Virus record (IMG/VR): IMGVR_UViG_3300037808_000678
Span: 1-21,852 of that record
Strand: one strand, 5' to 3'
Length of the DNA stretch: 21,852 bases
From: a virus
Below, one piece after another: positions 290-21,046 of the stretch. How positions within the stretch are numbered: position 1 is the first letter of the stretch; each line of letters begins with the position of its first letter. The notes under the pieces were generated by a model that saw nothing but the letters and a program-made list of their open reading frames with translations, did no database searches and was not told where the DNA came from. The position numbers and the translations under genes were made by a program.

Positions 290-874
290 ATGAAAACGGT
301 TGAGGAAATAAAAGGACAACTGGATAGGAAATTGACTGGTTTTATTACTGGGGTCAATGAATTTACTTATGACAACGGAAGTTGGGTTAGATCGGAATTG
401 CCGTATTCTATATATTATACCAAAGATAAGAAAGAACACTATATATTGAATACAATCATTCCAGAAAAAATATTGAGAAAAAGGGGTCACACAACATTCG
501 CGGAATATAGTAAGTCCCGCAATGGAGATATAGCTTCAACGAAATTTGTAAAATCCCGTGTGCCGAAAGTAAAAAAATTGGATATCAAACGCGGATTTAT
601 GATCAGATACTTCGTGCAACCAATAAATCAACCAACTTTGAAGTTGACCGAAATCAGCAAAACCAGCTTTGAAAATGAATTATCATATTATAAAAAACAC
701 GGAGTTCAATGAAAAATAGTTGGTAATAAGGGTGATGTTATAAAATGAAACAAGGAGGCTGTAAAATTTCTCAACGAGCAATATCCGAATACATTTATAT
801 TGATGAACTTTACCGAATTTTGGCAAGATGATTTAACAGAAAAAGAGAAAACAGAAAAAAAACTAAGGTTTTAA
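290..874 (+). CDS. T4-like neck/structural-type protein with two in-frame TGA codons
   Basis: ATG at 290 opens a frame that meets TGA at 710-712 (codon 141) and TGA at 746-748 (codon 153), then continues to TAA at 872-874. Read through, it gives 194 residues. The part after the first TGA is clearly protein-like: a short stretch reading xKIVGNKGDVIKx, then NKEAVKFLNEQYP and a FTEFWQDD segment with a TGG tryptophan. From memory, T4-like marine phage neck/structural proteins end in a similar module in which a tryptophan precedes K-I-x-G and a helix leads to a 'linker-FY/FW' end; that supports Trp at codon 141. No start with a good ribosome site exists just after either TGA, so two separate genes are unlikely. 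The N-terminal half (residues 1-140) is soluble, lysine-rich and without recognisable catalytic motifs. The specific virion role is uncertain. Confidence 0.65.
710..748 (+). other. Two in-frame TGA codons read as sense (probably Trp)
   Basis: TGA 710-712 and TGA 746-748 lie in the same frame as the gene starting at 290. The frame stays open with gene-like composition for 54 residues after the first TGA, until TAA at 872-874. The next bases are AAA and AAC respectively. Tryptophan is preferred because recalled homologues have Trp before the K-I-x-G motif; glycine (as in code 25) is the alternative. Confidence 0.65.
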
Positions 875-4150: not shown

Positions 4151-4567
4151 ATGCACACGCAATTACTTTGCTCATTCACAAAACGGAATCAGTTGCACGA
4201 TACGATAGATTTAATCATTGATTACCATGAAATACTATTCAATAAAATATACGTGTTTCAAAATGAAGACAATTTCCACCAGTTGATATGCACATACAAT
4301 ATAGAACAGGATACTGAAAATTACCTTACAAATAAGGATACCATTTCCTTGCATAGAAAAAAACAATCCAATACACTATATACCATTAACGCTCTTAATG
4401 AAGTGATTAGGCGTAAGAACAATGGGGTACTGGATAAGACATTTCCAATAGATTGAGACGAATTCAGAAATAATTTATTGCTTACGAACTCCTCTGGGTT
4501 TGTTAAAATACCCACCCGGATATATACAATCATTAATGTAACCGAATGAGAATCTAAAGAAAACTAA
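4151..4567 (+). CDS. Conserved marine T4-like phage protein with two in-frame TGA codons
   Basis: ATG at 4151 follows AAAGGA at 4137-4142. The frame meets TGA at 4454-4456 (codon 102) and TGA at 4547-4549 (codon 133), and ends at TAA 4565-4567, giving 138 residues. The segment before the first TGA (SLHRKKQSNTLYTINALNEV, then NGVLDKTFPID) and the segment after it (DEFRNNLLLTNSSGF, then an RIYTIINV end) belong together. From memory, this small uncharacterised family in T4-like marine phages ends with a Trp-D/E-x-Y/F-R-N pattern exactly here, supporting Trp at codon 102. The second TGA, five codons before TAA, could be sense or a real stop. The gene is directly followed by a strong terminator at 4573, so it closes a transcription unit. 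No catalytic motif or membrane segment is visible and the function is unknown. Confidence 0.7.
4454..4549 (+). other. Two in-frame TGA codons read as sense (first one well supported)
   Basis: TGA 4454-4456 separates two halves of one conserved protein; the 30 codons after it continue the family sequence. TGA 4547-4549 comes near the natural C-terminus, after an INVTE ending, and TAA follows at 4565. So the first is almost certainly decoded, while the second could act as a stop. Both are followed by G (GAC and GAA). Confidence 0.65.
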
Positions 4568-4572
4568 AACTG

Positions 4573-4594
4573 CCCCCGATTGGGGGTTTTTTTT
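4573..4594 (+). terminator. Intrinsic terminator
   Basis: CCCCC (4573-4577), loop GATT, GGGGG (4582-4586) and a run of eight T (4587-4594) form a textbook Rho-independent terminator. It sits 5 bases after the stop of the gene at 4151 and 20 bases before an early-type promoter. Confidence 0.9.
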
Positions 4595-4614
4595 GCGGCA
4601 TTGCAAAATAAAGC

Positions 4615-4643
4615 TTGACTTTGTGCGGATAATCTTGTATCTT
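4615..4643 (+). promoter_or_regulatory. Early sigma70-like promoter, cassette copy 1
   Basis: TTGACT (4615-4620), a 17-base spacer and TATCTT (4638-4643) form a sigma70-type promoter. Three more copies with the same hexamers and spacing occur at 6176, 9514 and 10025; all share CTTGTATCTTCA around the -10 box. This copy is the most diverged in the spacer. With the terminator just upstream it forms a terminator-promoter cassette. The leader ends in AGAGGA before the ATG at 4666. Confidence 0.85.
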
Positions 4644-4665
4644 CATCTAAGGAAAAGAGGACAAA

Positions 4666-5025
4666 ATGACTGACGAACACACACTATTTGAACTACCAGA
4701 AGATATGGATGGGACAATATCGGATGTAATAAATTCAGATAATTTAACAGATGTTGCAGAGGTGGCCAGACAGGCTGATAATGGAACATATCATTCTGGA
4801 TTGGGATCGGTGGAAATCCGAAGATCACGAAAGGCTGTGAATATTTCGGTATCATTTCGTGGAAATATGGGTACTCGCAAAGATAGTGTAAAACAGGCGA
4901 TGGATACAATCTTCGGGATTGAAGATACATTGCACAAATTAAAATATCATCCAAAGGTCATAAAATATCAACCAAGTGGCCATTGGGATTATTTATATGA
5001 GATAGAAATAAGGGTAAAAAAATGA
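4666..5025 (+). CDS. Hypothetical early protein
   Basis: This is the first gene after the promoter at 4615, with AGAGG at 4656-4660 upstream of ATG 4666. It encodes 119 residues: an acidic N-terminal 40 residues, then a beta-rich part (SVEIRRSRKAVNISVSFRG) and a helix (VKQAMDTIFGIEDTLHKLKY), ending in a YLYEIEIRVKK strand. No family is recognised. The end is ambiguous: TGA at 5023-5025 overlaps the next ATG by the usual ATGA. If TGA is sense, the protein gains two residues and ends at TAA 5029-5031. It is very likely a real gene because of its promoter, ribosome site and overlap with the next frame. Confidence 0.75.
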   Translation: MTDEHTLFELPEDMDGTISDVINSDNLTDVAEVARQADNGTYHSGLGSVEIRRSRKAVNISVSFRGNMGTRKDSVKQAMDTIFGIEDTLHKLKYHPKVIKYQPSGHWDYLYEIEIRVKK

Positions 5026-5231
5026 AATTAAAAGATTTACAACCATACGATTCATTGACATTCAGAAATAACAGGGTGTATCTAACTTATGCTGGAAGCA
5101 TTTGGGGCACACATAATGAAGACTTCACGTCTAAGAAAAACATAAAATTTGATATTGTCCGTGTGGAACGTGATGGTAAAATCATATTTGAGGACGAGGA
5201 TTATAAGAGGTTACATAATGTTACTAACTAG
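5022..5231 (+). CDS. Small hypothetical protein
   Basis: ATG 5022 overlaps the end of the preceding gene and the frame ends at TAG 5229-5231, overlapping the start of the HNH-RNA ligase gene at 5218, so translation is probably coupled through all three. The 69-residue product is soluble and predicted mostly beta: it opens with a MKLKDLQPYDSLTFRNNRVY strand pattern and ends with acidic residues (FEDEDYKRL). It resembles a small barrel-like domain, but I do not recognise a family. Its place directly before an RNA ligase may mean a linked role; there is no direct evidence for one. Confidence 0.7.
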   Translation: MKLKDLQPYDSLTFRNNRVYLTYAGSIWGTHNEDFTSKKNIKFDIVRVERDGKIIFEDEDYKRLHNVTN

Positions 5232-6162
5232 AAAAGAATTTGGGATGCAGGTATTTGAACGTGATATTTCACTATGCGTAATATGTGGTGAAGAGGCGGT
5301 CGATGCACATCATATAATGGACAGGAAACTGTTTAAAGATGGTGGGTACTACTTGGACAATGGGGCCTCATTGTGCTCCAAACATCACTTGGAAGCGGAA
5401 AATGGTGATATTACTCCAGCCGATCTGAGGGAAATTATTGGCATTGAAGAAGTGATTCTCCCCGATGGGACATACGATCCAAGATTGGATTATGACAAGT
5501 GGGGTAAAACACAAAAATATTTCAAGTACCCACGAACGTATCATTTTCCTTGGTCGGAAGGACTTCAGAATGATGACAAGATGATGGAAAATCCTGATCA
5601 ATTTATTGGCAAAGAAGTTGTTGTAACTGTGAAAATGGATGGTGAGAATACGACAATGTACAACGACCATTTCCATGCTCGATCATTGGATAGTAGACAT
5701 CACAATAGTCGCAATTATGTAAAGGGAATCCATGGTTCTATCAGGCACCGTCTCCCTGCAGGGTGGCGCGTGTGTGGTGAAAATTTATATGCAGAACACG
5801 CTATCAAATATAAATATCTGGACAGTTATTTCCAAGCATTTTCAATATGGCAAGCTGACAATATTTGTTTATCATGGAAATCTACACTTCATTATATTGA
5901 AGATTTGGGATTAACACCGGTCGCTACAATATATGAAGGAATATATGACGAATCGATAATTCGTGAAATTGGAGACGATTTGATGATAAATGGGTTGGAT
6001 GGTGATGAGGTTGAAGGTTATGTAGTTCGTCTGGCTGACAGATTTCACTATGACGACTTCGCTGATTCGGTTGGAAAATGTGTCCGTGCTGGTCATGTCG
6101 GGGCAACTGATGATCATTGGATGTCCAAATGGAATGAAAAAATGGTAAATAAATTAAAATAA
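5218..6162 (+). CDS. HNH-type zinc module fused to ATP-dependent RNA ligase
   Basis: ATG 5218 overlaps the end of the previous gene; an earlier in-frame start at 5149 would lie inside that gene and is not used here. The 314-residue protein has two parts. Residues 15-62 form an HNH-like zinc module: CVIC (20-23), DAHHIMDR with His31/His32, then NGASLCSKHH (Cys53, His56, His57). Residues about 100-310 are a nucleotidyltransferase of the Rnl2-like 'RNA ligase family': YPRTYHFPWSEG, motif I KMDGEN with the adenylated Lys139, HARSLDSRHH, motif III CGENLYA (186-192), motif IV EGYVVR (266-271) and motif V KCVR (287-290). It should seal 5'-phosphate/3'-OH ends in RNA using ATP, and pairs with the end-healing enzyme at 8156. 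The HNH part may bind or nick nucleic acid. Ligase identity is strong; HNH activity is not established. Confidence 0.88.
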   Translation: MLLTRKEFGMQVFERDISLCVICGEEAVDAHHIMDRKLFKDGGYYLDNGASLCSKHHLEAENGDITPADLREIIGIEEVILPDGTYDPRLDYDKWGKTQKYFKYPRTYHFPWSEGLQNDDKMMENPDQFIGKEVVVTVKMDGENTTMYNDHFHARSLDSRHHNSRNYVKGIHGSIRHRLPAGWRVCGENLYAEHAIKYKYLDSYFQAFSIWQADNICLSWKSTLHYIEDLGLTPVATIYEGIYDESIIREIGDDLMINGLDGDEVEGYVVRLADRFHYDDFADSVGKCVRAGHVGATDDHWMSKWNEKMVNKLK

Positions 6163-6218
6163 TAGCAGAAAACGCTTGACTTTGTCATTTTTATCTTGTA
6201 TCTTCAGGTATGATAAGA
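6147..6218 (+). repeat. 72-bp direct repeat, copy 1 (gene tail plus promoter)
   Basis: Bases 6147-6218 are identical to 9485-9556 over all 72 positions, in direct orientation. The copy starts inside the last codons and TAA of the RNA ligase gene and runs through the -35 and -10 boxes to the leader. It is shown here as source or target of a duplicated regulatory cassette. Confidence 0.95.
6176..6204 (+). promoter_or_regulatory. Early sigma70-like promoter, cassette copy 2
   Basis: TTGACT (6176-6181), 17-base spacer, TATCTT (6199-6204). The leader CAGGTATGATAAGAGAGGA, shared with the copy at 10025, carries the ribosome binding site AGAGAGGA for the gene at 6231. Confidence 0.88.
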
Positions 6219-6230
6219 GAGGAAATACCA

Positions 6231-6485
6231 ATGTTTACAAATATTACGAAAAATGAATTACGACTATTAACTGATATTTTTAGGAGTGATTTTTTGCGTC
6301 TCGCCGAAATGGGTGATTTTGTTGAATATCCCGTGGGTGCAACTATATTTTTAAGTGGTATGAATCACAACCCAATGACATCGGAATTAAAGCCTAAGGT
6401 TTTAATACCCGAAGTAAAATTTAGTGATTGGGATAAATTGGTATTAAAACGGGCATTCCCCACATTTAAAGGAATTAGTATATAA
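6231..6485 (+). CDS. Small hypothetical early protein
   Basis: First gene after the promoter at 6176. Start at 6231 is chosen because AGAGAGGA ends 7-8 bases upstream; the in-frame ATG at 6210 lies within the promoter leader, next to the likely transcription start, and has no ribosome site. The 84-residue protein starts with a helical segment (ITKNELRLLTDIFRSDFLRL), and has a Val/Pro/Gly-rich middle and a C-terminal FSDWDKLVLKRAFPTF segment. No known domain or membrane segment is visible. The next gene begins one base after the TAA, so they are co-translated. Confidence 0.72.
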   Translation: MFTNITKNELRLLTDIFRSDFLRLAEMGDFVEYPVGATIFLSGMNHNPMTSELKPKVLIPEVKFSDWDKLVLKRAFPTFKGISI

Positions 6486-6486
6486 A

Positions 6487-7206
6487 ATGGCTATAGTAAC
6501 CAAACAAGAATTTGATAAATTAGAAGCATTTTTGAACCTAAATTTGGTTCAATTGTTTAAGAAAAGTCCGTATATTTCGATTGAAATTGAACGGGTAAGA
6601 GACCAATATATCAGAATTTGGGGTAAAAACACTTCTGGTAAAATTGAAAACGAAAACGAATTCAGAATTTCGATTACCCATACTGAAATTTATTCAAATG
6701 TGTCTCCAGGTAGATTTGTATATGAACCGGGATACGCTTCTTTTCTGTACCACAGAGATCGTCGTGAAAAGAAATTGGGTAAATTTAAGAAAATATTCAC
6801 ATTGGCCAACGACGCGATGAAACAATATGAGCAACATATTCGGCAATTAATCGATGAGAAAAACAAAGTTGAAGATTTCAAATACAACGCAATTTCAGAA
6901 TTCGATGATGGAAATTTTAATGTCACAACTCGTGGGACTAGAACTATTGATATAGCTAGTAAAACCCGTGAAATGGAAAAACGTTCCTATTATGGGCAAG
7001 AGACAACAACGGTTCCATTACCTTTATTGACATTATCAGCTCAGCCCGATGGTCAGTATTCAATCGATTCAGGCTCTGGAATGATTAGAGAATGGGACAA
7101 ATTTGAATTTAAGGCCCATCACATCAAGGAACTGGCAGAATTTTTAGAAAAAGTTATGTTTGAAAACGAACACATGACCGACTATTTGGAGGAAGATGAT
7201 GATTGA
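6487..7206 (+). CDS. Hypothetical protein of about 239 residues
   Basis: ATG 6487 starts just after the previous TAA. The product has an N-terminal helix (VTKQEFDKLEAFLNLN), a beta-rich section with IWGKNTSG and FRISITHTEIYSN, a charged helical region (about 95-135) that could form a coiled coil, and an acidic end (DYLEEDDD). I recognise no family. The end is ambiguous: TGA 7204-7206 falls 5 bases into the next gene; if TGA is sense, the frame runs on for 9 codons to TAG 7231-7233. Position within the RNA-repair and HD-hydrolase cluster suggests an early host-interaction gene, but nothing in the sequence proves it. Confidence 0.75.
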   Translation: MAIVTKQEFDKLEAFLNLNLVQLFKKSPYISIEIERVRDQYIRIWGKNTSGKIENENEFRISITHTEIYSNVSPGRFVYEPGYASFLYHRDRREKKLGKFKKIFTLANDAMKQYEQHIRQLIDEKNKVEDFKYNAISEFDDGNFNVTTRGTRTIDIASKTREMEKRSYYGQETTTVPLPLLTLSAQPDGQYSIDSGSGMIREWDKFEFKAHHIKELAEFLEKVMFENEHMTDYLEEDDD

Positions 7207-7717
7207 GAAAGCAAAATCGTACGCAGTACATAGACACAGCATAGCAAATCAAACCTATGATGGAAAACCATATGAAACCCACTTGAGCGAAGTGGTAAAC
7301 GTGGTTGAAGAATTTAAGCATCTAATTCGGGGATTCTCCGAAAACTACGAACAACTGATTTCAGCGGCATGGAACCATGACGTATTGGAAGATACAGATA
7401 CCAGCTATGGAGATTTGGAAAAGGTGGTTGGAACGGTAGTTGCTGATTTGGTATATAGAGTTACCAACGAATTGGGAAAAAACAGAATTGAACGGGGAAT
7501 GAAAACTTACCCCAAAACAAGAGAAAGCCACGGAGCCACGTTTCTAAAATTATCGGACAGGATTGCAAACACCCGCCGGTCAAAGAGGAACGGGCATCGC
7601 ATGTTTAAAGCATACACTAAGGAATACCCAACATTCAGATACGCTCTAAAGCGTGGGGTACTCTTTGCAGATATGTGGGCACATCTCGATGAACTATATG
7701 GATATGAGGAAGATTAA
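7199..7717 (+). CDS. HD-domain hydrolase, MESH1/SpoT-like (small alarmone hydrolase candidate)
   Basis: GGAGG at 7188-7192 sits 6 bases before ATG 7199, so this start is preferred over ATG 7196. The 172-residue protein is a single HD domain in the style of RelA/SpoT and MESH1 hydrolases: YETHLSEVV (His28), AAWNHDVLEDTDTSYGDLE (His60-Asp61, the HD pair followed by the family's ED-T pattern), GTVVADLVYRVTN, and KLSDRIANTR (Asp120), which matches the SpoT/MESH1 'KLADRLHN' motif. Length fits a stand-alone hydrolase without synthetase or regulatory domains. Members of this family remove pyrophosphate from (p)ppGpp or act on related nucleotides such as NADPH. A phage enzyme of this type could blunt the host stringent response. 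The substrate is inference; the HD family call is firm. Confidence 0.8.
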   Translation: MIEKAKSYAVHRHSIANQTYDGKPYETHLSEVVNVVEEFKHLIRGFSENYEQLISAAWNHDVLEDTDTSYGDLEKVVGTVVADLVYRVTNELGKNRIERGMKTYPKTRESHGATFLKLSDRIANTRRSKRNGHRMFKAYTKEYPTFRYALKRGVLFADMWAHLDELYGYEED

Positions 7718-9484: not shown

Positions 9485-9556
9485 AAATAAATTAAAATAA
9501 TAGCAGAAAACGCTTGACTTTGTCATTTTTATCTTGTATCTTCAGGTATGATAAGA
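9485..9556 (+). repeat. 72-bp direct repeat, copy 2
   Basis: Identical to 6147-6218. Here the fragment of the RNA ligase gene end (AAATTAAAATAA) lies in non-coding DNA, directly after the TAA of the gene at 9131. That marks this copy as the inserted or converted one. Confidence 0.95.
9514..9542 (+). promoter_or_regulatory. Early sigma70-like promoter, cassette copy 3
   Basis: TTGACT (9514-9519), 17-base spacer, TATCTT (9537-9542). It is part of the 72-bp duplication and drives the gene at 9588 through a longer leader that differs from copy 2 after 9556. Confidence 0.88.
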
Positions 9557-9587
9557 AAGTCAAAACAAAACACAATTGGAGAAAAAA

Positions 9588-9977: not shown

Positions 9978-10004
9978 AAGCATCAGAAATGGTGCTTTTT
10001 TTTT
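9978..10004 (+). terminator. Intrinsic terminator
   Basis: AAGCATC (9978-9984), loop AGAAAT, GGTGCTT (9991-9997; one G-T pair) then a run of T to 10004. It ends the single-gene unit at 9588 and lies directly before the promoter at 10025, repeating the terminator-promoter arrangement seen at 4573-4643. Confidence 0.85.
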
Positions 10005-10024
10005 GCGAAAAAGCAAAATAACGC

Positions 10025-10053
10025 TTGACATTGTCATTTTTTTCTTGTATCTT
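10025..10053 (+). promoter_or_regulatory. Early sigma70-like promoter, cassette copy 4
   Basis: TTGACA (10025-10030), 17-base spacer, TATCTT (10048-10053). This copy has the consensus -35 hexamer. Downstream, CAGGTATGATAAGAGAGGA is the same leader as in copy 2 and supplies the ribosome site for the gene at 10080. Confidence 0.9.
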
Positions 10054-10079
10054 CAGGTATGATAAGAGAGGACAATCAA

Positions 10080-10355
10080 ATGAGAAAAATAACTGGAATA
10101 TTTTGGTATGAAACTGAGTACGAACTAATGAAAGACGAAGAGGGTTTTTTCGTTAAAGTTGGTGAGGAAATCACTCGGTTAAAGGGTGTACGAATGAGCA
10201 AGAGTATTGCTTTTCAGTACATTGATTTTCTAAACAAAGCAGTGGTCGCTTTAGGTGGTAACACCTTTGGTTACTTCTCTGGATTTAACAAATATGATTT
10301 CCCTGCTGAAAAGGCGTGGGACGGTTCATTAATAGCTAAGAATTATAAAGGATAA
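10080..10355 (+). CDS. Small hypothetical early protein
   Basis: Start 10080 is chosen because AGAGAGGA lies just upstream; the in-frame ATG at 10059 is in the promoter leader. The 91-residue protein begins MRKITGIFWYETEYELMKDE and contains a short helix (KSIAFQYIDFLNKAVVALG) and an aromatic Gly-rich end (FGYFSGFNKYDFPAEKAW). No transmembrane segment or catalytic motif is evident and I do not recognise the family. It leads a run of five small genes up to 11041, most likely one early operon. Confidence 0.75.
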   Translation: MRKITGIFWYETEYELMKDEEGFFVKVGEEITRLKGVRMSKSIAFQYIDFLNKAVVALGGNTFGYFSGFNKYDFPAEKAWDGSLIAKNYKG

Positions 10356-11979: not shown

Positions 11980-11999
11980 GGGGGACTTCGGTCCCCCTT
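11980..11999 (+). terminator. UUCG-loop hairpin, probable terminator or processing site
   Basis: GGGGGAC (11980-11986), TTCG tetraloop, GTCCCCC (11991-11997) form a very stable hairpin between gene 32 and the recombinase gene. The T tract after it is weak (TTAATTTA), so it may attenuate or stabilise the gene 32 message rather than fully terminate. Confidence 0.75.
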
Positions 12000-12015
12000 A
12001 ATTTAGGAGACGCAT

Positions 12016-13140
12016 ATGAGAGATCGAGACGAATTAGCCTCAGTAATTGCCGATTCATTGAATAGTGCCGCTGATGATACAGTTGCATATTTTCTGGATG
12101 GAGAATCAACACCTACGGACGTATCCGATTGAATTTCAACGGGATCGTCTGAATTAGATTTAGCAATATCTAATATTCCACATGGAGGAATACCAGTAGG
12201 TAGAATCACAGAATTTAATGGACTTGAAGGAACCGGTAAAAGTCTTATCGGTGCCCATATCCTAGCCAATACTCAAAAAAAGGGTGGGGTGGCCATTTAC
12301 ATTGATACGGAAACATCTGTTAGTCCACAGTTTTTAACAGCGATTGGCGTTGATGTTAGAAATATGATTTATGATCATGTTGAAACCGTTGAAGAAATTT
12401 TCGAACACATCGAAAGTATTATACTCAAAACTAGAGAAACGGAAAAAGGTCGATTGGTTACTATATTAGTTGACAGTATTGCCGCTGCTAGTACAAAAGT
12501 TGAGATGGAAGCCGATTATGATAAGGATGGTTGGGCAACGACCAAAGCTATTGTGATTTCAAAAGCCATGAGAAAAATTACCCAGACGATTGGCAAACAA
12601 CGTGTGGCGTTAGTATTTACAAATCAATTAAGGCAAAAATTGGGAGTGGGATTTGGTGATCCATGGACTACTTCTGGTGGTAAGGCTCTGCCATTCCACG
12701 CTTCAGTTAGAATACGATTGAAGAATATGGGCAGAATAAAAGTTGGTACTGGTACAAAGGAACGGATAATTGGGATGAAAATTGGAGCCCAAGTAATCAA
12801 AAATAGAATGGGACCACCATTGAGAAAAGCCGAATTTCAGCTCGATTTTGCCTCTGGCATTGACGACTTGGGAAGTTGGATCAGGATATTGGCCGCATAT
12901 AAGATTATAAAACAAGCTGGAGCTTGGTACACAATTGAGTATGAAGATAAATCGATAAAATTCCAAGCTAAGAAATTTGAGGAAGTTCTTGAAAAGAATC
13001 CCAAATTGAAAGAATATCTATATCAACAAATATGCGAAAATGTTATATTGAAGTATAGAAATGTCGCAAATGACGATGAAGAAATCGTAGTAGAAACGGT
13101 TCCAGAAGAACCGGATGACGAGGTTTTAGAAGAAGAATAG
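12016..13140 (+). CDS. uvsX: UvsX/RecA-like recombinase with an in-frame TGA codon
   Basis: ATG 12016 has TTAGGAG at 12003-12009. The frame meets TGA at 12130-12132 (codon 39) and continues to TAG 13138-13140, giving 374 residues. After the TGA come ISTGSSELDLAIS (40-52), the RecA-family strand before the ATP site, Walker A GLEGTGKS (69-76), IYIDTETSVSPQFL, the VDSIAAAS Walker B strand, FTNQLRQKLGVGFGDPW with TTSGGKALPFHASVR for the L2/C-terminal core, and an acidic tail. There is no in-frame ATG between the TGA and Walker A (the first is at 12364), so ending at TGA would leave a 38-residue peptide and no recombinase. The residue before I-S-T-G is recalled as Trp in related phage recombinases. 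The protein forms filaments on DNA coated by gp32 for strand exchange. The family is sure; the symbol is by role. Confidence 0.85.
12130..12132 (+). other. In-frame TGA codon in the recombinase gene (probably Trp)
   Basis: TGA at codon 39 lies between the N-terminal cap (STPTDVSD) and the conserved ISTGSSELDL strand of the RecA fold, in one frame. The next base is A (ATT). Since recombination is essential to T4-type replication, this codon must be decoded or the gene is broken. Confidence 0.8.
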
Positions 13141-15981: not shown

Positions 15982-18900
15982 ATGATAAATTTTAAATTAT
16001 CGGATAAATTTATAGATGGGTTTAAGAGAAAACGGGCACCCTTTGGGTTTAACGGTCTCGGGGCATTGGTGTATATGAGGACATATTCACGCATTAAAGA
16101 GGATGGTTCAAACGAACAATGGTGGGAAACTGTCCAGCGTGTAGTTGAAGGTACATATAGTATGCAGAAGAAATCCATAGAAAATGACGGTCTGGGATGG
16201 AATGCATGGCAAGCACAGCGATCGGCACAAGAAATGTACGAGCGTATATTTGAAATGAAATTTTTACCACCCGGACGTGGATTGTGGGCAATGGGTACTC
16301 CCATCACCGAAGAAAAGGGATTGTATGCCGCACTTAATAATTGTGCGTTTGTATCTACTGAAAATCTTAAGGATGATTTGGCCAAGCCATTTACATTTCT
16401 TATGGATGCGTCGATGCTGGGCGTTGGCGTTGGATTTGATACAAAGGGAGCTGGGGCACTTATTGTCAAAGGTCCCAATATGACTAGACCAGTTGAAATA
16501 TACCAAGTTCCAGATTCTCGTGAAGGTTGGGTAGAGGCAATGAAACTTGTAATCGAAAGCTACTTTCAAGGAACATCTGTGATGGAATTTGATTATTCAT
16601 TAATCAGGGGTGAGGGAGAACCAATCAAAGGATTTGGTGGAACGTCTAGTGGGTATAAACCATTGGAAGATGCCATTGAACGTGTGAGGGATACATTGCA
16701 AGATAATATCGGTGCCCCAATTACAATCACAACTATTGTGGACATTATGAACCATATTGGCAAATGTGTGGTTGCTGGAAACGTAAGGCGTACAGCTGAA
16801 ATCGTATTCGGTGATCCCAATGATACCGAGTATCTTGACCTTAAAAATTATGAGGTAAACCCACAACGTGAAGAATTTGGATGGACTTCTAATAATTCAA
16901 TCTTTGCCGAACTGGGCATGGATTATACGGAAGCGTGCGAACGTGTGGTTAAAAATGGAGAACCTGGATTTGCATGGTTAGAAAATATGCAGGGGTATTC
17001 CAGAATGAAAAATGGCAAAGATAATATTGATCATAAGGTAAAGGGTGGCAATCCTTGTGTTGTCGGAGATACTTTAATTGCGGTGGCGGATGGTAGAAAC
17101 GCCATCCCTATTAAAGATTTGGTAAATACGATATATCCAGTTTATTCAGTTAATGATGATGGGAAAGTAATAATAAGTCAGTCAATTAAAACTTGGAAAA
17201 CACAAGAAAATGCTGAAATATGGAAATTAATTTTAGACGATGGTTCTACTTTATTGGCAACTCCCAATCATAAAATTATGTTAAGGTCTGGCGTGTATAA
17301 AGAACTTAAAGATTTGCAAGAAGGGGATTCGATATTTCCATTTAATAGTTTTAATAGAGGTTATAGAAATATAAGTGGAACGGGTAAAAAGGCGAGTGGA
17401 ATAAGGCAATACAGACTTATCACGGAAAATAAAATTGGATATATGCCTGACGCTAAAAAGTATGCTATTCATCATGTGGATTTTGATAAAACAAACGATG
17501 AATGGGATAATTTGGATATTATTACACAATCTGAGCATAGTAGTTTGCATAGATTAATTGACAATCCAATGCACAATCCGGAATGTGTAGAAAAGATGAA
17601 AAATACAAGGGAAGAAAGAGGATATAATTTATCGGAAAATAATCCAATGTATGGCAAATATCATAAAAAATCCACATTAAAATCCATAGGTGAGAAATCG
17701 AAGGAAAATTGGGAAAATCAAAAAGATTTCATGACAGAATCTATTAAAAATGGAATGACCGCCGAAGTTAGAAATCATATATCCGATAAAATGAAAGAAA
17801 AAACAATTTGGGTTGATTGGAAATGCCCAGTTTGTAATAAACAAAAAACATTAACCGAACATCAAGCTTCTACTAGAAAAACCTGTAGTTACTCCTGTTC
17901 CAATGTTAAGCGGGGAATGGAAAATAGGGGCATTTGGAATCATAAAGTATTGTCCATTGAATTTTATGGACATGAAGATGTTTATGATATGACAGTTGAA
18001 AATACCCATAATTTTGGAATAATAACGTCAAATGTTGACGATAAATATATGGAATCGTCTGGAATATTTATTCATAATTGCTTAGAACAATCGCTCGAAT
18101 CATATGAATTGTGTTGTCTTGTAGAAACATTCCCCAATAATCATACGTCAAAAGAAGATTATCTACGGACATTGAAATATGCATATCTCTATGCAAAAAC
18201 GGTCACACTTGGGAAAACTCATTGGCCTGATACAAATAGAGTCATGCTCAGGAATCGTAGAATTGGAACATCTGTATCTGGTATTGCACAGTTTATCACA
18301 AATAGGGGCTTGGGGGTACTTAGGGAATGGTTAGAAGATGGGTATGTTGAAATTAAAAAGTGGGACACAATGTATTCAGATTGGTTATGCATCAATAAGA
18401 GTATAAAAATTACAAGTGTCAAACCGAGTGGCACGGTGTCATTATTAGCTGGATCAACTCCCGGATTACATTATCCAGAGAGCCGATTTTACATCAGGCG
18501 TGTTAGATTATCTAAGAATAGTAAACTGATAAAACCACTTGAAGCCGCTGGTTATAAGATCGAACCCGCATATGGTAGTGAAGAAAGCACAGTAGTATTG
18601 GAAATTCCAATCGATGAGGGAGACGGAATTAGGACAAAGCAGGACTTAACTATGTGGGAGCAGTTGGCTCTAGCGGCGTTTATGCAACGGCATTGGGCGG
18701 ACAATGCTGTTAGTTGTACGATCACGTTTGATCCTGAAACTGAAGGTCCTCAATTAAAACACGCGTTAAACTATTACCAATATCAATTGAAAGGTATATC
18801 ATTCTTGCCTAAGGTTGAAAAAGGTGCATATAGACAAATGCCATACGAAGAAATTACTGAAGAGAAATATGATGAAATCCTATCTGGATTGAAATATTTG

Positions 18901-19014
18901 AGTTTTTTACATGTTGACGGTGAAATGGCAAATCCAGACAAATACTGTGGAACTGACGTATGCGAGATCGATGCCGAGTGGGCACAAATTGAAGAAGAAC
19001 AAAAGGAAAAATAA
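15982..19014 (+). CDS. nrdJ: Adenosylcobalamin-dependent ribonucleotide reductase (class II, RTPR-type) with intein
   Basis: The frame encodes 1010 residues; removing the 341-residue intein leaves 669, near the size of monomeric RTPR (about 740 in Lactobacillus). Motifs in order: KEDGSNEQWWETVQRVVEGT, FLPPGRGLWAMGT, ALNNCAFVST (redox Cys121), MDASMLGVGVGFDTKGAG, CVVAGNVRRTAEIVFGD, then GGNP before the intein. After it come CLEQSLESYELCCLVE, LYAKTVTLGKTHWP, SVKPSGTVSLLAGSTPG, WADNAVSCT and the C-terminal CGTDVC shuttle pair. The first C-extein residue (Cys700) equals the thiyl-radical cysteine (Lactobacillus Cys408), Glu702 equals Glu410, and Cys711 pairs with Cys121. It makes dNTP building blocks in an oxygen-independent, B12-dependent way. 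GGAG at 15971-15974 precedes the start. Confidence 0.92.
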   Translation: MINFKLSDKFIDGFKRKRAPFGFNGLGALVYMRTYSRIKEDGSNEQWWETVQRVVEGTYSMQKKSIENDGLGWNAWQAQRSAQEMYERIFEMKFLPPGRGLWAMGTPITEEKGLYAALNNCAFVSTENLKDDLAKPFTFLMDASMLGVGVGFDTKGAGALIVKGPNMTRPVEIYQVPDSREGWVEAMKLVIESYFQGTSVMEFDYSLIRGEGEPIKGFGGTSSGYKPLEDAIERVRDTLQDNIGAPITITTIVDIMNHIGKCVVAGNVRRTAEIVFGDPNDTEYLDLKNYEVNPQREEFGWTSNNSIFAELGMDYTEACERVVKNGEPGFAWLENMQGYSRMKNGKDNIDHKVKGGNPCVVGDTLIAVADGRNAIPIKDLVNTIYPVYSVNDDGKVIISQSIKTWKTQENAEIWKLILDDGSTLLATPNHKIMLRSGVYKELKDLQEGDSIFPFNSFNRGYRNISGTGKKASGIRQYRLITENKIGYMPDAKKYAIHHVDFDKTNDEWDNLDIITQSEHSSLHRLIDNPMHNPECVEKMKNTREERGYNLSENNPMYGKYHKKSTLKSIGEKSKENWENQKDFMTESIKNGMTAEVRNHISDKMKEKTIWVDWKCPVCNKQKTLTEHQASTRKTCSYSCSNVKRGMENRGIWNHKVLSIEFYGHEDVYDMTVENTHNFGIITSNVDDKYMESSGIFIHNCLEQSLESYELCCLVETFPNNHTSKEDYLRTLKYAYLYAKTVTLGKTHWPDTNRVMLRNRRIGTSVSGIAQFITNRGLGVLREWLEDGYVEIKKWDTMYSDWLCINKSIKITSVKPSGTVSLLAGSTPGLHYPESRFYIRRVRLSKNSKLIKPLEAAGYKIEPAYGSEESTVVLEIPIDEGDGIRTKQDLTMWEQLALAAFMQRHWADNAVSCTITFDPETEGPQLKHALNYYQYQLKGISFLPKVEKGAYRQMPYEEITEEKYDEILSGLKYLSFLHVDGEMANPDKYCGTDVCEIDAEWAQIEEEQKEK
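17056..18078 (+). other. Intein with HNH/NUMOD3 homing endonuclease in the RNR gene
   Basis: The 341-residue insertion starts at Cys359 (CVVGDTLIAVADG, block A) and ends with GIFIHN before Cys700 (block G). Block B is seen as LLATPNHKIMLRSGVYKEL (T-P-N-H), and block F as DVYDMTVENTHNFGI. Between them lies an HNH nuclease (KKYAIHHVDFDKTNDEWDNL then ITQSEHSSLHR), NUMOD3-like repeats (NPMYGKYHKKSTLKSIGEK) and a zinc pair (CPVC with CSYSC). All splice residues (Cys1, TxxH, Asn, Cys+1) are present, so it should be active as a class 1 intein and homing element. Confidence 0.93.
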
Positions 19015-19196: not shown

Positions 19197-19652
19197 ATGT
19201 ACACATTAAGAATAAAACCACTACGAGATGATGTAGCAGAACTATATAAAAATCATACCCATTATCACCAAGGAGATTCTGGGTTGGATTTATTCTGCCC
19301 CGATGATGTAATGATCCCAGCTGGAACTTTGGGTAGGCAAATAAAAATGGGAATTGCCTGTGAAATGTTTTATGGTATGAATGAAGCGGTATCATTTAAC
19401 ATTTATCCACGATCGAGCATTTCAAAAACACCACTCCGATTATCAAATTCAATCGGATTAGTAGATGCTGGGTATCGTGGTGAAATTATGGCACTATTTG
19501 ATAACCACAGTGATCGTGATTATCTAATTTCTGCGGGAGACAGGTTATTACAGATTGTGGCTCCAACGCTCCAATCATTTTATATGTCGATAGTAAACGA
19601 GTTATCAGATTCAGATCGTGGAACTGGTGGGATCGGCAGTACAGGCAAATAA
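19197..19652 (+). CDS. dut: dUTPase (trimeric Dut family)
   Basis: The 151-residue protein has all five dUTPase motifs: DSGLDLF (27-33), PRSSIS (71-76), SNSIGLVDAGYRGEI (83-97, with the catalytic Asp90), GDRLLQIVAP (114-123) and RGTGGIGSTG (141-150, the phosphate-binding arm). It hydrolyses dUTP to dUMP and pyrophosphate, keeping uracil out of phage DNA and feeding dTMP synthesis. It starts 1 base after the previous stop, so it belongs to the same nucleotide-supply operon as the RNR. The protein is intact and of normal length. The gap after it (19653-19888) holds two tRNA-like genes. Confidence 0.95.
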   Translation: MYTLRIKPLRDDVAELYKNHTHYHQGDSGLDLFCPDDVMIPAGTLGRQIKMGIACEMFYGMNEAVSFNIYPRSSISKTPLRLSNSIGLVDAGYRGEIMALFDNHSDRDYLISAGDRLLQIVAPTLQSFYMSIVNELSDSDRGTGGIGSTGK

Positions 19653-19708
19653 ATGATGATTTTGAAAAATAAATCGGGTCTTTGGGAGATTTAATACTAT
19701 TTATATAT

Positions 19709-19780
19709 GCGGCTGAGGTGTAACAGGATTGCATGTCAGCTTTCCAGCTGAAGGAGTTGGTTCAAGACCTTCCAGCCGCT
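19709..19780 (+). tRNA. Degenerate tRNA-Gly(UCC)-like gene
   Basis: Acceptor stem GCGGCTG/CAGCCGC is perfect over 7 bp with U73. The D arm GTGT/GCAT has two G-U pairs and a D loop with GG. The anticodon stem TCAGC/GCTGA is perfect but the loop is TTTCCA, only six bases; TCC preceded by T and followed by A fits Gly. The T arm (GTTGG, TTCAAGA, CCTTC) has two T-T mismatches. It resembles phage tRNA-Gly(UCC) with one lost loop base, so it may be a pseudogene or a tRNA with altered decoding. No CCA is encoded. Confidence 0.6.
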
Positions 19781-19791
19781 CTAAATAAAAT

Positions 19792-19863
19792 GCGATTGAA
19801 GTGTAACAGGTAGCACGCTGGTATTCCATATCAGAGGAGTGGGTTCGAGACCTACCAATCGCT
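19792..19863 (+). tRNA. tRNA-Gly(UCC)
   Basis: A 72-base cloverleaf: acceptor GCGATTG/CAATCGC, D stem GTGT/GCAC with loop AACAGGTA, anticodon stem CTGGT/ATCAG with loop ATTCCAT (U33, anticodon UCC, A37), four-base variable loop, and T arm GTGGG-TTCGAGA-CCTAC. Discriminator U73 is the glycine identity base. It reads GGA, a common codon in this AT-rich window. CCA is not encoded. Confidence 0.8.
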
Positions 19864-19888
19864 CTTTTAATGCAAAGGAAAATAGGTT

Positions 19889-21046
19889 ATGACATTTTCA
19901 AACAAGTTTTTTGATATCAAGCCATTTGATATTGAAGAAGAGAAACAAAATTTAATAAACAACTTGGATTTTTTACATTCTATGACAGTAGAAGAACAAA
20001 CGCTATACAAAAAATGGCAGGAGTTCAATAAGAATGAGTATAAAATCAGAGAAAAAGCACATCTGTTTGATGTGTTTGAAAAAAGGTTATGGGCACCAAC
20101 GGACATTAATGACGTTGAATTGACTGTAAAGGAAATTGAAGCTCTCGAACCGATAGTAGAATATGCTGGAAGTGATGAAGCTTCAGATTGGTCATTGTAC
20201 AGGATGTTAATTCACACAATGGATTGGTCAGCTAATCCGGGTAGAAATATGAAATTCTATGTAAAGGATGCTGTCACTCGGAAAGTGTTAGGACTAATAT
20301 CAATGGGCTCTGATGTCACCAGTATTAAGGTCAGGGATGATTATATTGGTTGGACAAAAGATAATAAATTCGTAGAACACAAGTTGAATAACACAGCTAT
20401 AGCCAGTACAATTGTATCGGTTCAACCGCTGGGGTATAATATGCTTGGTGGGAAATTGATAGCCACATTGGCAACGGTATCAACTATCAGGGATAAGTGG
20501 TTTGAAGTATACGGTGATGTATTGGCCGGAGTTACTACCACATCATTGTACGGAATTCATTCACAATATAATGGCATTCCCCATTGGAAAACGATGGGTG
20601 AATCAGCTGGTAAGATCAGAATCAAGCCAGACGATTCGGAATATATGAAATGGAACAAATGGCTCAAAGAGAATCATCCAGAGCAATATGAAAAGGCTAT
20701 CACTGGAACGGGTCCCAAGCAGAATGTGTTAAACAAAGTATTCAGTCATTTGAAGATCAGGGGTTATGAGCATGGATTTCATAGGGGTGTATATTTTGCA
20801 TCAATATATGATAATACAATACCATTCTTGAAGAATGAAATCGAAGAATCAGAGTTGAAAATGAAGCTTAAATACGAACAGGATTATGAATATATCAATC
20901 GTTGGTGGAAAAAGAAAGCCATAAGACGATATAGAAATGTGGTTGAACAGGGTAGAGTCAAACCCGAAAAATTATTTTATGGTGATATCGTAGGGGTAAC
21001 TTGGGATGAATGTAAAGAAATGTATTTAAAAGAAGTGGGAAGATAA
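19889..21046 (+). CDS. DUF4338/DruA-like protein
   Basis: The 385-residue protein has an N-terminal helical part (1-115), then a domain that fits DUF4338, the family of Druantia protein DruA. Visible pieces are KVLGLISMGSDV (132-143), VRDDYIGWT (148-156), a LNN segment (166-168), QPLGYNMLGGKLIATLA (179-195), a W-x-x-x-Y-G-D stretch (204-210), GVTTTSLYGIHSQYNGIPHW (214-233) and GESAGK (237-242). In the recalled family pattern, D-x-W/Y-I-G-W is followed by N-x, L-L-G-G-K-L, Y-G, a T-T-S segment, Y-N and a Gly-rich end. A C-terminal extension is basic and helical. The function of phage copies is unknown; they could modify DNA or a host component. It sits after the tRNAs and before the DNA polymerase, separate from the nucleotide genes. 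Confidence 0.72.
   Translation: MTFSNKFFDIKPFDIEEEKQNLINNLDFLHSMTVEEQTLYKKWQEFNKNEYKIREKAHLFDVFEKRLWAPTDINDVELTVKEIEALEPIVEYAGSDEASDWSLYRMLIHTMDWSANPGRNMKFYVKDAVTRKVLGLISMGSDVTSIKVRDDYIGWTKDNKFVEHKLNNTAIASTIVSVQPLGYNMLGGKLIATLATVSTIRDKWFEVYGDVLAGVTTTSLYGIHSQYNGIPHWKTMGESAGKIRIKPDDSEYMKWNKWLKENHPEQYEKAITGTGPKQNVLNKVFSHLKIRGYEHGFHRGVYFASIYDNTIPFLKNEIEESELKMKLKYEQDYEYINRWWKKKAIRRYRNVVEQGRVKPEKLFYGDIVGVTWDECKEMYLKEVGR

Follow-up and report, generated by a model that had tools for sequence, protein, structure and literature searches.

An in-frame TGA in a phage recombinase gene and the probable reading of UGA as tryptophan across a T4-like lineage

Why would a phage recombinase gene carry a TGA in frame at its 39th codon? 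Is the gene broken, is the codon a regulatory stop, or does UGA encode an amino acid in this virus and, if so, which one? The window studied here is the entire virus record, 21,852 bases long. Translation bears out the sequence-only reading that the TGA at codon 39, immediately 5′ of the I-S-T-G strand, is the sole internal stop of frame 12016-13140 and that the frame terminates at TAG. The gene has the following features.

12005-12009, plus strand: AGGAG, the likely ribosome-binding site of the recombinase, six bases 5′ of the ATG and identical in both lineages described below (DNA alignment)
12016-13140, plus strand: RecA/UvsX-family recombinase gene, 374 amino acids with UGA as Trp (Pfam, PHROG, purifying selection)
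12130-12132, plus strand: in-frame TGA, codon 39, with the Trp reading; common to two lineages (comparison of 80 loci)
12220-12243, plus strand: codons 69-76 (GLEGTGKS), 3′ of the TGA, Walker A (translation)

The frame matches Pfam RecA (9.9e-55), PHROG UvsX-like proteins (1.1e-72), and the structures of RecA (1n03, 7e-51) and phage UvsX (9gbg, 9e-19). Its RecA core includes Walker A and the ISTG strand, its N-terminal segment is homologous as well, and a gp32-like single-stranded DNA-binding gene adjoins the frame on the 5′ side. The window recombinase thus resembles T4-type UvsX and bacterial RecA in family and in its gp32-like neighbor but differs in having UGA as codon 39, a position at which Thr is aligned in RecA chain 3cmu. 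By eye, a terminator-like hairpin separates the gp32-like gene from the recombinase (11980-11997); a hairpin is also present there in lineage B (L008), with a stem sequence that differs between the lineages.

To see what relatives encode at codon 39, we took the best 80 of 206 related stretches from viral contigs. Among these, codon 39 is TGA in 10, TTT in 31, TTC in 11, and TGG in 28. Six of the ten TGA loci are near-identical to the window gene (lineage A), and the other four, lineage B, share 81% protein identity with it; sister phages have recombinases that are 62 to 68% identical. The sequence-only reading expected Trp here in related phage recombinases. This holds for 28 of the 70 non-TGA loci and fails for the other 42, which have Phe and include the nearest relatives; therefore, codon 39 alone cannot settle Phe versus Trp.

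The two lineages are separated by a dS of about 2 in the recombinase, and their dN/dS is 0.109 over the 38 codons 5′ of the TGA and 0.055 over the 332 codons 3′ of it. These ratios indicate that purifying selection acts both 5′ and 3′ of the TGA, which is not what a pseudogene shows, and the 38 N-terminal residues seem to be translated. Re-initiation past the UGA was considered and is unlikely. As the sequence-only reading had it, the window has no in-frame ATG between the TGA and Walker A (the next in-frame starts are a GTG 53 codons and an ATG 78 codons past the TGA); lineage B does have an ATG 15 codons past the TGA, before Walker A, but this ATG is absent from the window and so is not common to both lineages. 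A hairpin or SECIS-like element 3′ of the UGA was rejected as well: the window folds at 12118-12200 (z, −2.4) and contains a strong stem in a 38-nucleotide stretch (hairpin 12118-12149; z, −3.3), but lineage B showed no such stem (z, −0.5).

For the genome-wide comparison, we used G001, a lineage B record of which 140,000 bases were analyzed, and G002, a lineage A record of 71,794 bases that is 99.1% identical to window positions 306 to 21852. With 16 sister records (first 20,000 bases only of G021, G024, G025, and G026), this made 18 records, compared on the plus strand with two-sided homology at each TGA. G001 has 22 in-frame TGA sites, opposite Trp at 13, Phe at 2, Tyr, Asn, and Pro at 1 each, and stops only at 4; G002 also has 22, opposite Trp at 12, Phe at 3, Tyr at 2, Asn and Thr at 1 each, and stops only at 3. 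Trp therefore stands opposite TGA at 13/18 (G001) and 12/19 (G002) of the sites with a residue opposite. The same test on the 16 sisters gave 11 TGA sites in total, none of them opposite Trp. When TAG was used as a control, three sites were found in each clade record, every one opposite stops; TAA gave 19 sites in G001 and 17 in G002, 11 of each opposite stops only and the rest without a dominant residue. A looser count that admits minus-strand segments found 26 and 27 TGA sites, with Trp at 14 and 15, in G001 and G002, respectively, and one such Trp match in sister G017. A direct comparison of lineages A and B paired TGA with TGG at 21 sites, with TGA at 12, and with codons for other residues at 10 (5 Tyr, 3 Leu, and one each of Ile and Pro).

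Frames broken only by TGA, with homology continuing beyond it, include a T4-type terminase, an intein-bearing portal frame, GDP-mannose dehydratase, and many unnamed genes. The T4-type portal frame (L082 8088-11264 in G001) has its intein in the first half and contains five in-frame TGAs. A glycosyltransferase gene (L086 14553-16148, equal to G001 94553-96148, and its counterpart in G002) has a TGA at codon 9 in both lineages. An apparent bias of TGAs toward gene starts (KS P = 0.007) was set aside because the gene models there hold likely false 5′ extensions with TGA. T4-like markers (Pfam Gp23, Portal_T4, and Terminase_6N in G001; gp32 and RecA in the window) are present, and the comparison places the probable reassignment within the window's clade alone among the records compared.

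Seven TGAs (710, 746, 4454, 4547, 5023, 7204, and 12130) are in frame when the window is translated with code 4. Besides the recombinase, they fall in four genes.

290-874, plus strand: gene with in-frame TGAs at 710-712 and 746-748 and a TAA at 872-874; the read-through product resembles a lineage B gene (by eye)
4151-4567, plus strand: gene with in-frame TGAs at 4454-4456 and 4547-4549 and a TAA at 4565-4567 (compared via G002)
4666-5031, plus strand: gene with a TGA at 5023-5025 and then a TAA at 5029-5031; ambiguous, either a stop or Trp plus one residue
6487-7233, plus strand: gene with a TGA at 7204-7206 and then a TAG at 7231-7233; ambiguous

At 710 and 746, G002 has TGG and TCA (Ser). 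Compared on G002, the TGA at 4454 is opposite Trp in 14 sister records, and that at 4547 is opposite Trp in lineage B and Thr in two sisters. A TAA lies two codons past 5023 and a TAG nine codons past 7204, so both of these TGAs could be stops; 5023 leans to a stop because lineage B has TAA at the homologous position, and the TGA at 7204 is present in both lineages and overlaps the start of the next gene.

The window has several other features. A promoter-like repeat (GCTTGAC...TCTTGTATCTTCA) occurs four times, before small open reading frames, at 4587-4645, 6147-6231, 9485-9569, and 9996-10080, and the copies are perhaps early promoters. A class II-type ribonucleotide reductase gene (15982-19014) carries an intein with an HNH domain, and all 22 of its Trp codons are TGG. 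Within the phage replication region, 19889-21046 has a protein match to the Druantia DruA family (6.5e-23).

Which amino acid does UGA specify? With the sister records as the sole reference, the log-likelihoods over 25 TGA sites are as follows: Trp, −40.6; Phe, −79.8; Tyr, −82.6; and Gly, −161.6. Trp is ahead of Phe by 39, of Gly by 121, and of Cys by 128 log units. The terminase, compared across 54 loci, gives a similar picture. At least one in-frame TGA is present in eleven clade loci, G001 among them, and the aligned part of the remaining 43 loci is free of in-frame TGAs. All 8 clade loci that span codons 82 and 119 have TGA at both, and codon 286 is TGA in lineage B (four loci) and TGG in lineage A; outside the clade, the covered loci have TGG at codon 82 in 42/42, at codon 119 in 43/43, and at codon 286 in 40/40. 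Not every site follows this pattern: several TGAs common to both lineages stand opposite Phe, Leu, or a mixture of Asn, Tyr, His, and Ser in the sisters. The proposal that UGA is read as Trp thus gains its support chiefly from the genome-wide evidence and less from codon 39, on which it had first been made.

If UGA is a sense codon, genes should end otherwise. Among homologous gene ends in the clade, 44/45 are TAA or TAG and one is TGA (G002 17439), with a TAA six codons further. Nine sister records of the Phe type at codon 39 have TGA at 17/113 homologous ends (versus 1/45 in the clade, Fisher P = 0.025); for all 16 sisters, the figure is 22/243, and the difference from 1/45 is nonsignificant (P = 0.14). 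Homologous ends across sisters are nonindependent. In addition, a pair of open reading frames of 55 to 57 codons (G001 102534-102705 and G002 59170-59335) both end at TGA and have no conserved continuation; here TGA may truly act as a stop, or the open reading frame may be spurious. By this comparison, the clade appears to use UGA as a terminator rarely at most, with a few ambiguous ends (window 5023 and 7204 and the pair just mentioned).

Taken together, these observations make it very probable that the window lineage consists of T4-like phages that have reassigned UGA, ordinarily a stop, to Trp genome-wide (NCBI table 4). UAA and UAG would be the remaining stops in the clade. If UGA is Trp genome-wide, the recombinase gene would be intact, not broken, and would encode a 374-residue UvsX/RecA protein with Trp39 specified by UGA. 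A sequencing error or nonsense mutation that leaves a pseudogene might be suspected from the single TGA against 98 TGG codons in the window under code 11, but that impression arises because the gene ends were taken from code 11. The recombinase TGA occurs in eleven records of two lineages, the window included; its presence in the window, in six near-identical records, and in four lineage B records therefore argues against a base-calling error in a single assembly. With purifying selection on both sides and many further in-frame TGAs, we regard error or decay as having a negligible chance of being correct. Glycine had also been named as a meaning of UGA (code 25); hosts with this code are known, and PMC10746230 describes phages that use it. 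The log-likelihoods place both Gly and Cys far below Trp, so that glycine is strongly disfavored; the tRNA-Gly genes found by ARAGORN carry UCC or ACC anticodons, and the post-UGA hairpin that might suit selenocysteine was not found in lineage B. Either meaning would be very surprising here.

UGA is nonetheless a minor Trp codon. Its share of Trp codons in homology-supported regions is 8.6% in G001 and 12.9% in G002 (6 to 8% in the pairwise set), whereas A-ending codons make up 42 to 83% in the other five A/G two-fold families; this rarity is not what free use of code 4 predicts. When the genomes were divided into structural and replication blocks, labels assigned in this analysis itself, UGA accounted for 21/59 Trp codons in the structural block of G002 versus 11/155 in its replication block (P = 1e-6) and for 14/124 versus 9/148 in G001 (P = 0.13). 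Among 11,893 codon pairs aligned between lineages A and B, 9 are TGA-TGA, 11 are mixed, and 182 are TGG-TGG, an odds ratio of 58, compared with 2.1 to 4.0 for sharing of synonymous states in ten other two-fold families; stratification by block leaves an odds ratio of 31 (P = 9e-8). Thus, UGA seems to be avoided overall yet retained at particular sites, the recombinase included, although the numbers are small. Slow exchange under selection and real use of the sites would both fit this retention, leaving room for a regulatory use of the retained UGAs.

How might UGA be decoded? Two tRNA-related genes were found in the window.

19709-19780, plus strand: second tRNA-like gene (Rfam RF00005, 36 bits), with a lineage B homologue (L086 1817-1889)
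19792-19864, plus strand: tRNA-Gly(UCC), not a UGA decoder (ARAGORN over the window, Rfam over 19600-19950)

By eye, the tRNA-like gene has a Gly-like acceptor stem, a 6-nucleotide anticodon loop (UUUCCA), and two U-U mismatches in the T stem, and a change in its anticodon stem compensates between lineages; default ARAGORN misses it. At default thresholds, no UGA-reading tRNA or tRNA-Trp(UCA) was detected in the 140 kb of G001, the 72 kb of G002, or the shorter clade contigs. Default ARAGORN runs on G001 and G002 returned only tRNA-Gly genes with UCC or ACC anticodons, to which Rfam adds the one odd tRNA-like gene. Relaxed runs gave scattered and weak matches, among them, in G001, a 99-base "tRNA-SeC" (UCA) at 95486-95584 and a "tRNA-Trp(cca)" at 135170-135257, which we took as noise. 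A lineage A contig that runs about 9 kb past the left end of G001 has no detected tRNAs in that part; because G001 and G002 are incomplete, a suppressor tRNA may lie in the parts that are missing. The RF-1 family was not found in 19 records, nor was PF00579 (TrpRS family) in 8 records.

Because the phage sequence examined yielded no tRNA-Trp(UCA), RF1, or TrpRS, we lean toward the simpler reading that the host supplies the decoding: its tRNA-Trp would read UGA, and its RF2 would be missing or weak. A host was sought with the recombinase in genome contigs, where 0/47 pattern matches were relatives, and with the phage GDP-mannose dehydratase, whose best 80 of 591 relatives reach 63% identity and are spread over many phyla; no host was inferred. 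According to sections of PMC8629427, bacteria that read UGA as Trp include Mycoplasmatales, Entomoplasmatales, and several insect symbionts, and parts of PMC13092985 add a patescibacterial family and a putative dinoflagellate endosymbiont. One clade member comes from metagenome IMG 3300035698, which passages of PMC8542988 place among the metagenomes of Ace Lake, Antarctica. More specifically, and more doubtfully, the lineage might infect a bacterium with an unrecognized UGA = Trp code, perhaps with RF2 lost and a slow ordinary tRNA-Trp(CCA), and the phage might keep a small set of UGAs, that of the recombinase included, as slow or gated codons through which the supply of recombinase depends on how translation is running; we hold this elaboration to be unlikely.

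Host-supplied decoding, though not the Trp meaning itself, competes with a late code switch, in which a suppressor tRNA or an anti-RF2 factor carried by the phage acts in a standard-code host; genes with UGA would then be made late and the recombinase delayed. Such a model is already published (described in sections of PMC10746230 and cited in those of PMC11210395), and both the excess of TGA in the structural block of G002 and the sharing of UGA sites between lineages within blocks agree with it. The weak block contrast in G001 does not, nor does the failure to find tRNA-Trp(UCA) at default thresholds, RF1, or TrpRS, in genomes that are incomplete; moreover, the replication block has no clear UGA stop, though the ends at 5023 and 7204 are ambiguous. 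We consider the late switch a serious but less likely alternative to decoding by the host. The recombinase UGA could instead be a conserved gate, programmed at this single site, that yields a 38-residue peptide by default and the full-length protein by read-through. The TGA is retained in both lineages in a block where 112/117 paired Trp sites are TGG in both; it comes early, so that stopping there is cheap; and the glycosyltransferase gene likewise keeps its early TGA in both lineages. Yet in-frame UGAs occur in many unrelated genes, often several in each, which makes a site-specific signal unnecessary, and the hairpin at 12118-12149 was not found in lineage B. A gate of this kind is improbable.

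Phages that use code 4 are already known: portions of PMC11210395 (2024) list 27 INPHARED genomes, 22 of which are Mycoplasma or Spiroplasma phages, and 46 gut viral operational taxonomic units (vOTUs), with Sup-UCA tRNA detected in 11/73 code 4 phages. As described there, those phages are like the window lineage in reading UGA as Trp genome-wide and, for the most part, in having no detected Sup-UCA tRNA; the window lineage differs in being T4-like, in coming from IMG/VR metagenome contigs, and in using UGA as a minor Trp codon. In the late-switch recoded phages attributed to Borges et al. 2022 by later papers, the recoded codon is commoner in structural genes, which is significant here only in G002; in our lineage, no suppressor tRNA, RF1, or TrpRS has been found so far, and UGA lies in a recombination gene. 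A megablast search of the window against a phage collection gave no match, and the top-ranked recombinase in that collection, from Microcystis phage Mel-JY01 (PP395634), is 52.7% identical to that of the window. The literature that we searched contained no report of this lineage or of any T4-like aquatic clade with code 4.

Annotation with the standard code would label the recombinase, the terminase, and further genes of this clade as broken. The retention of a disfavored codon at particular sites is measurable and calls for explanation, and the lineage points to a yet-to-be-found host or decoding device in an aquatic setting. Since the sisters lack the in-frame TGA pattern and have TGA gene ends, the path of UGA reassignment may be traceable in a large phage, with the clade and its sisters as a before-and-after pair.
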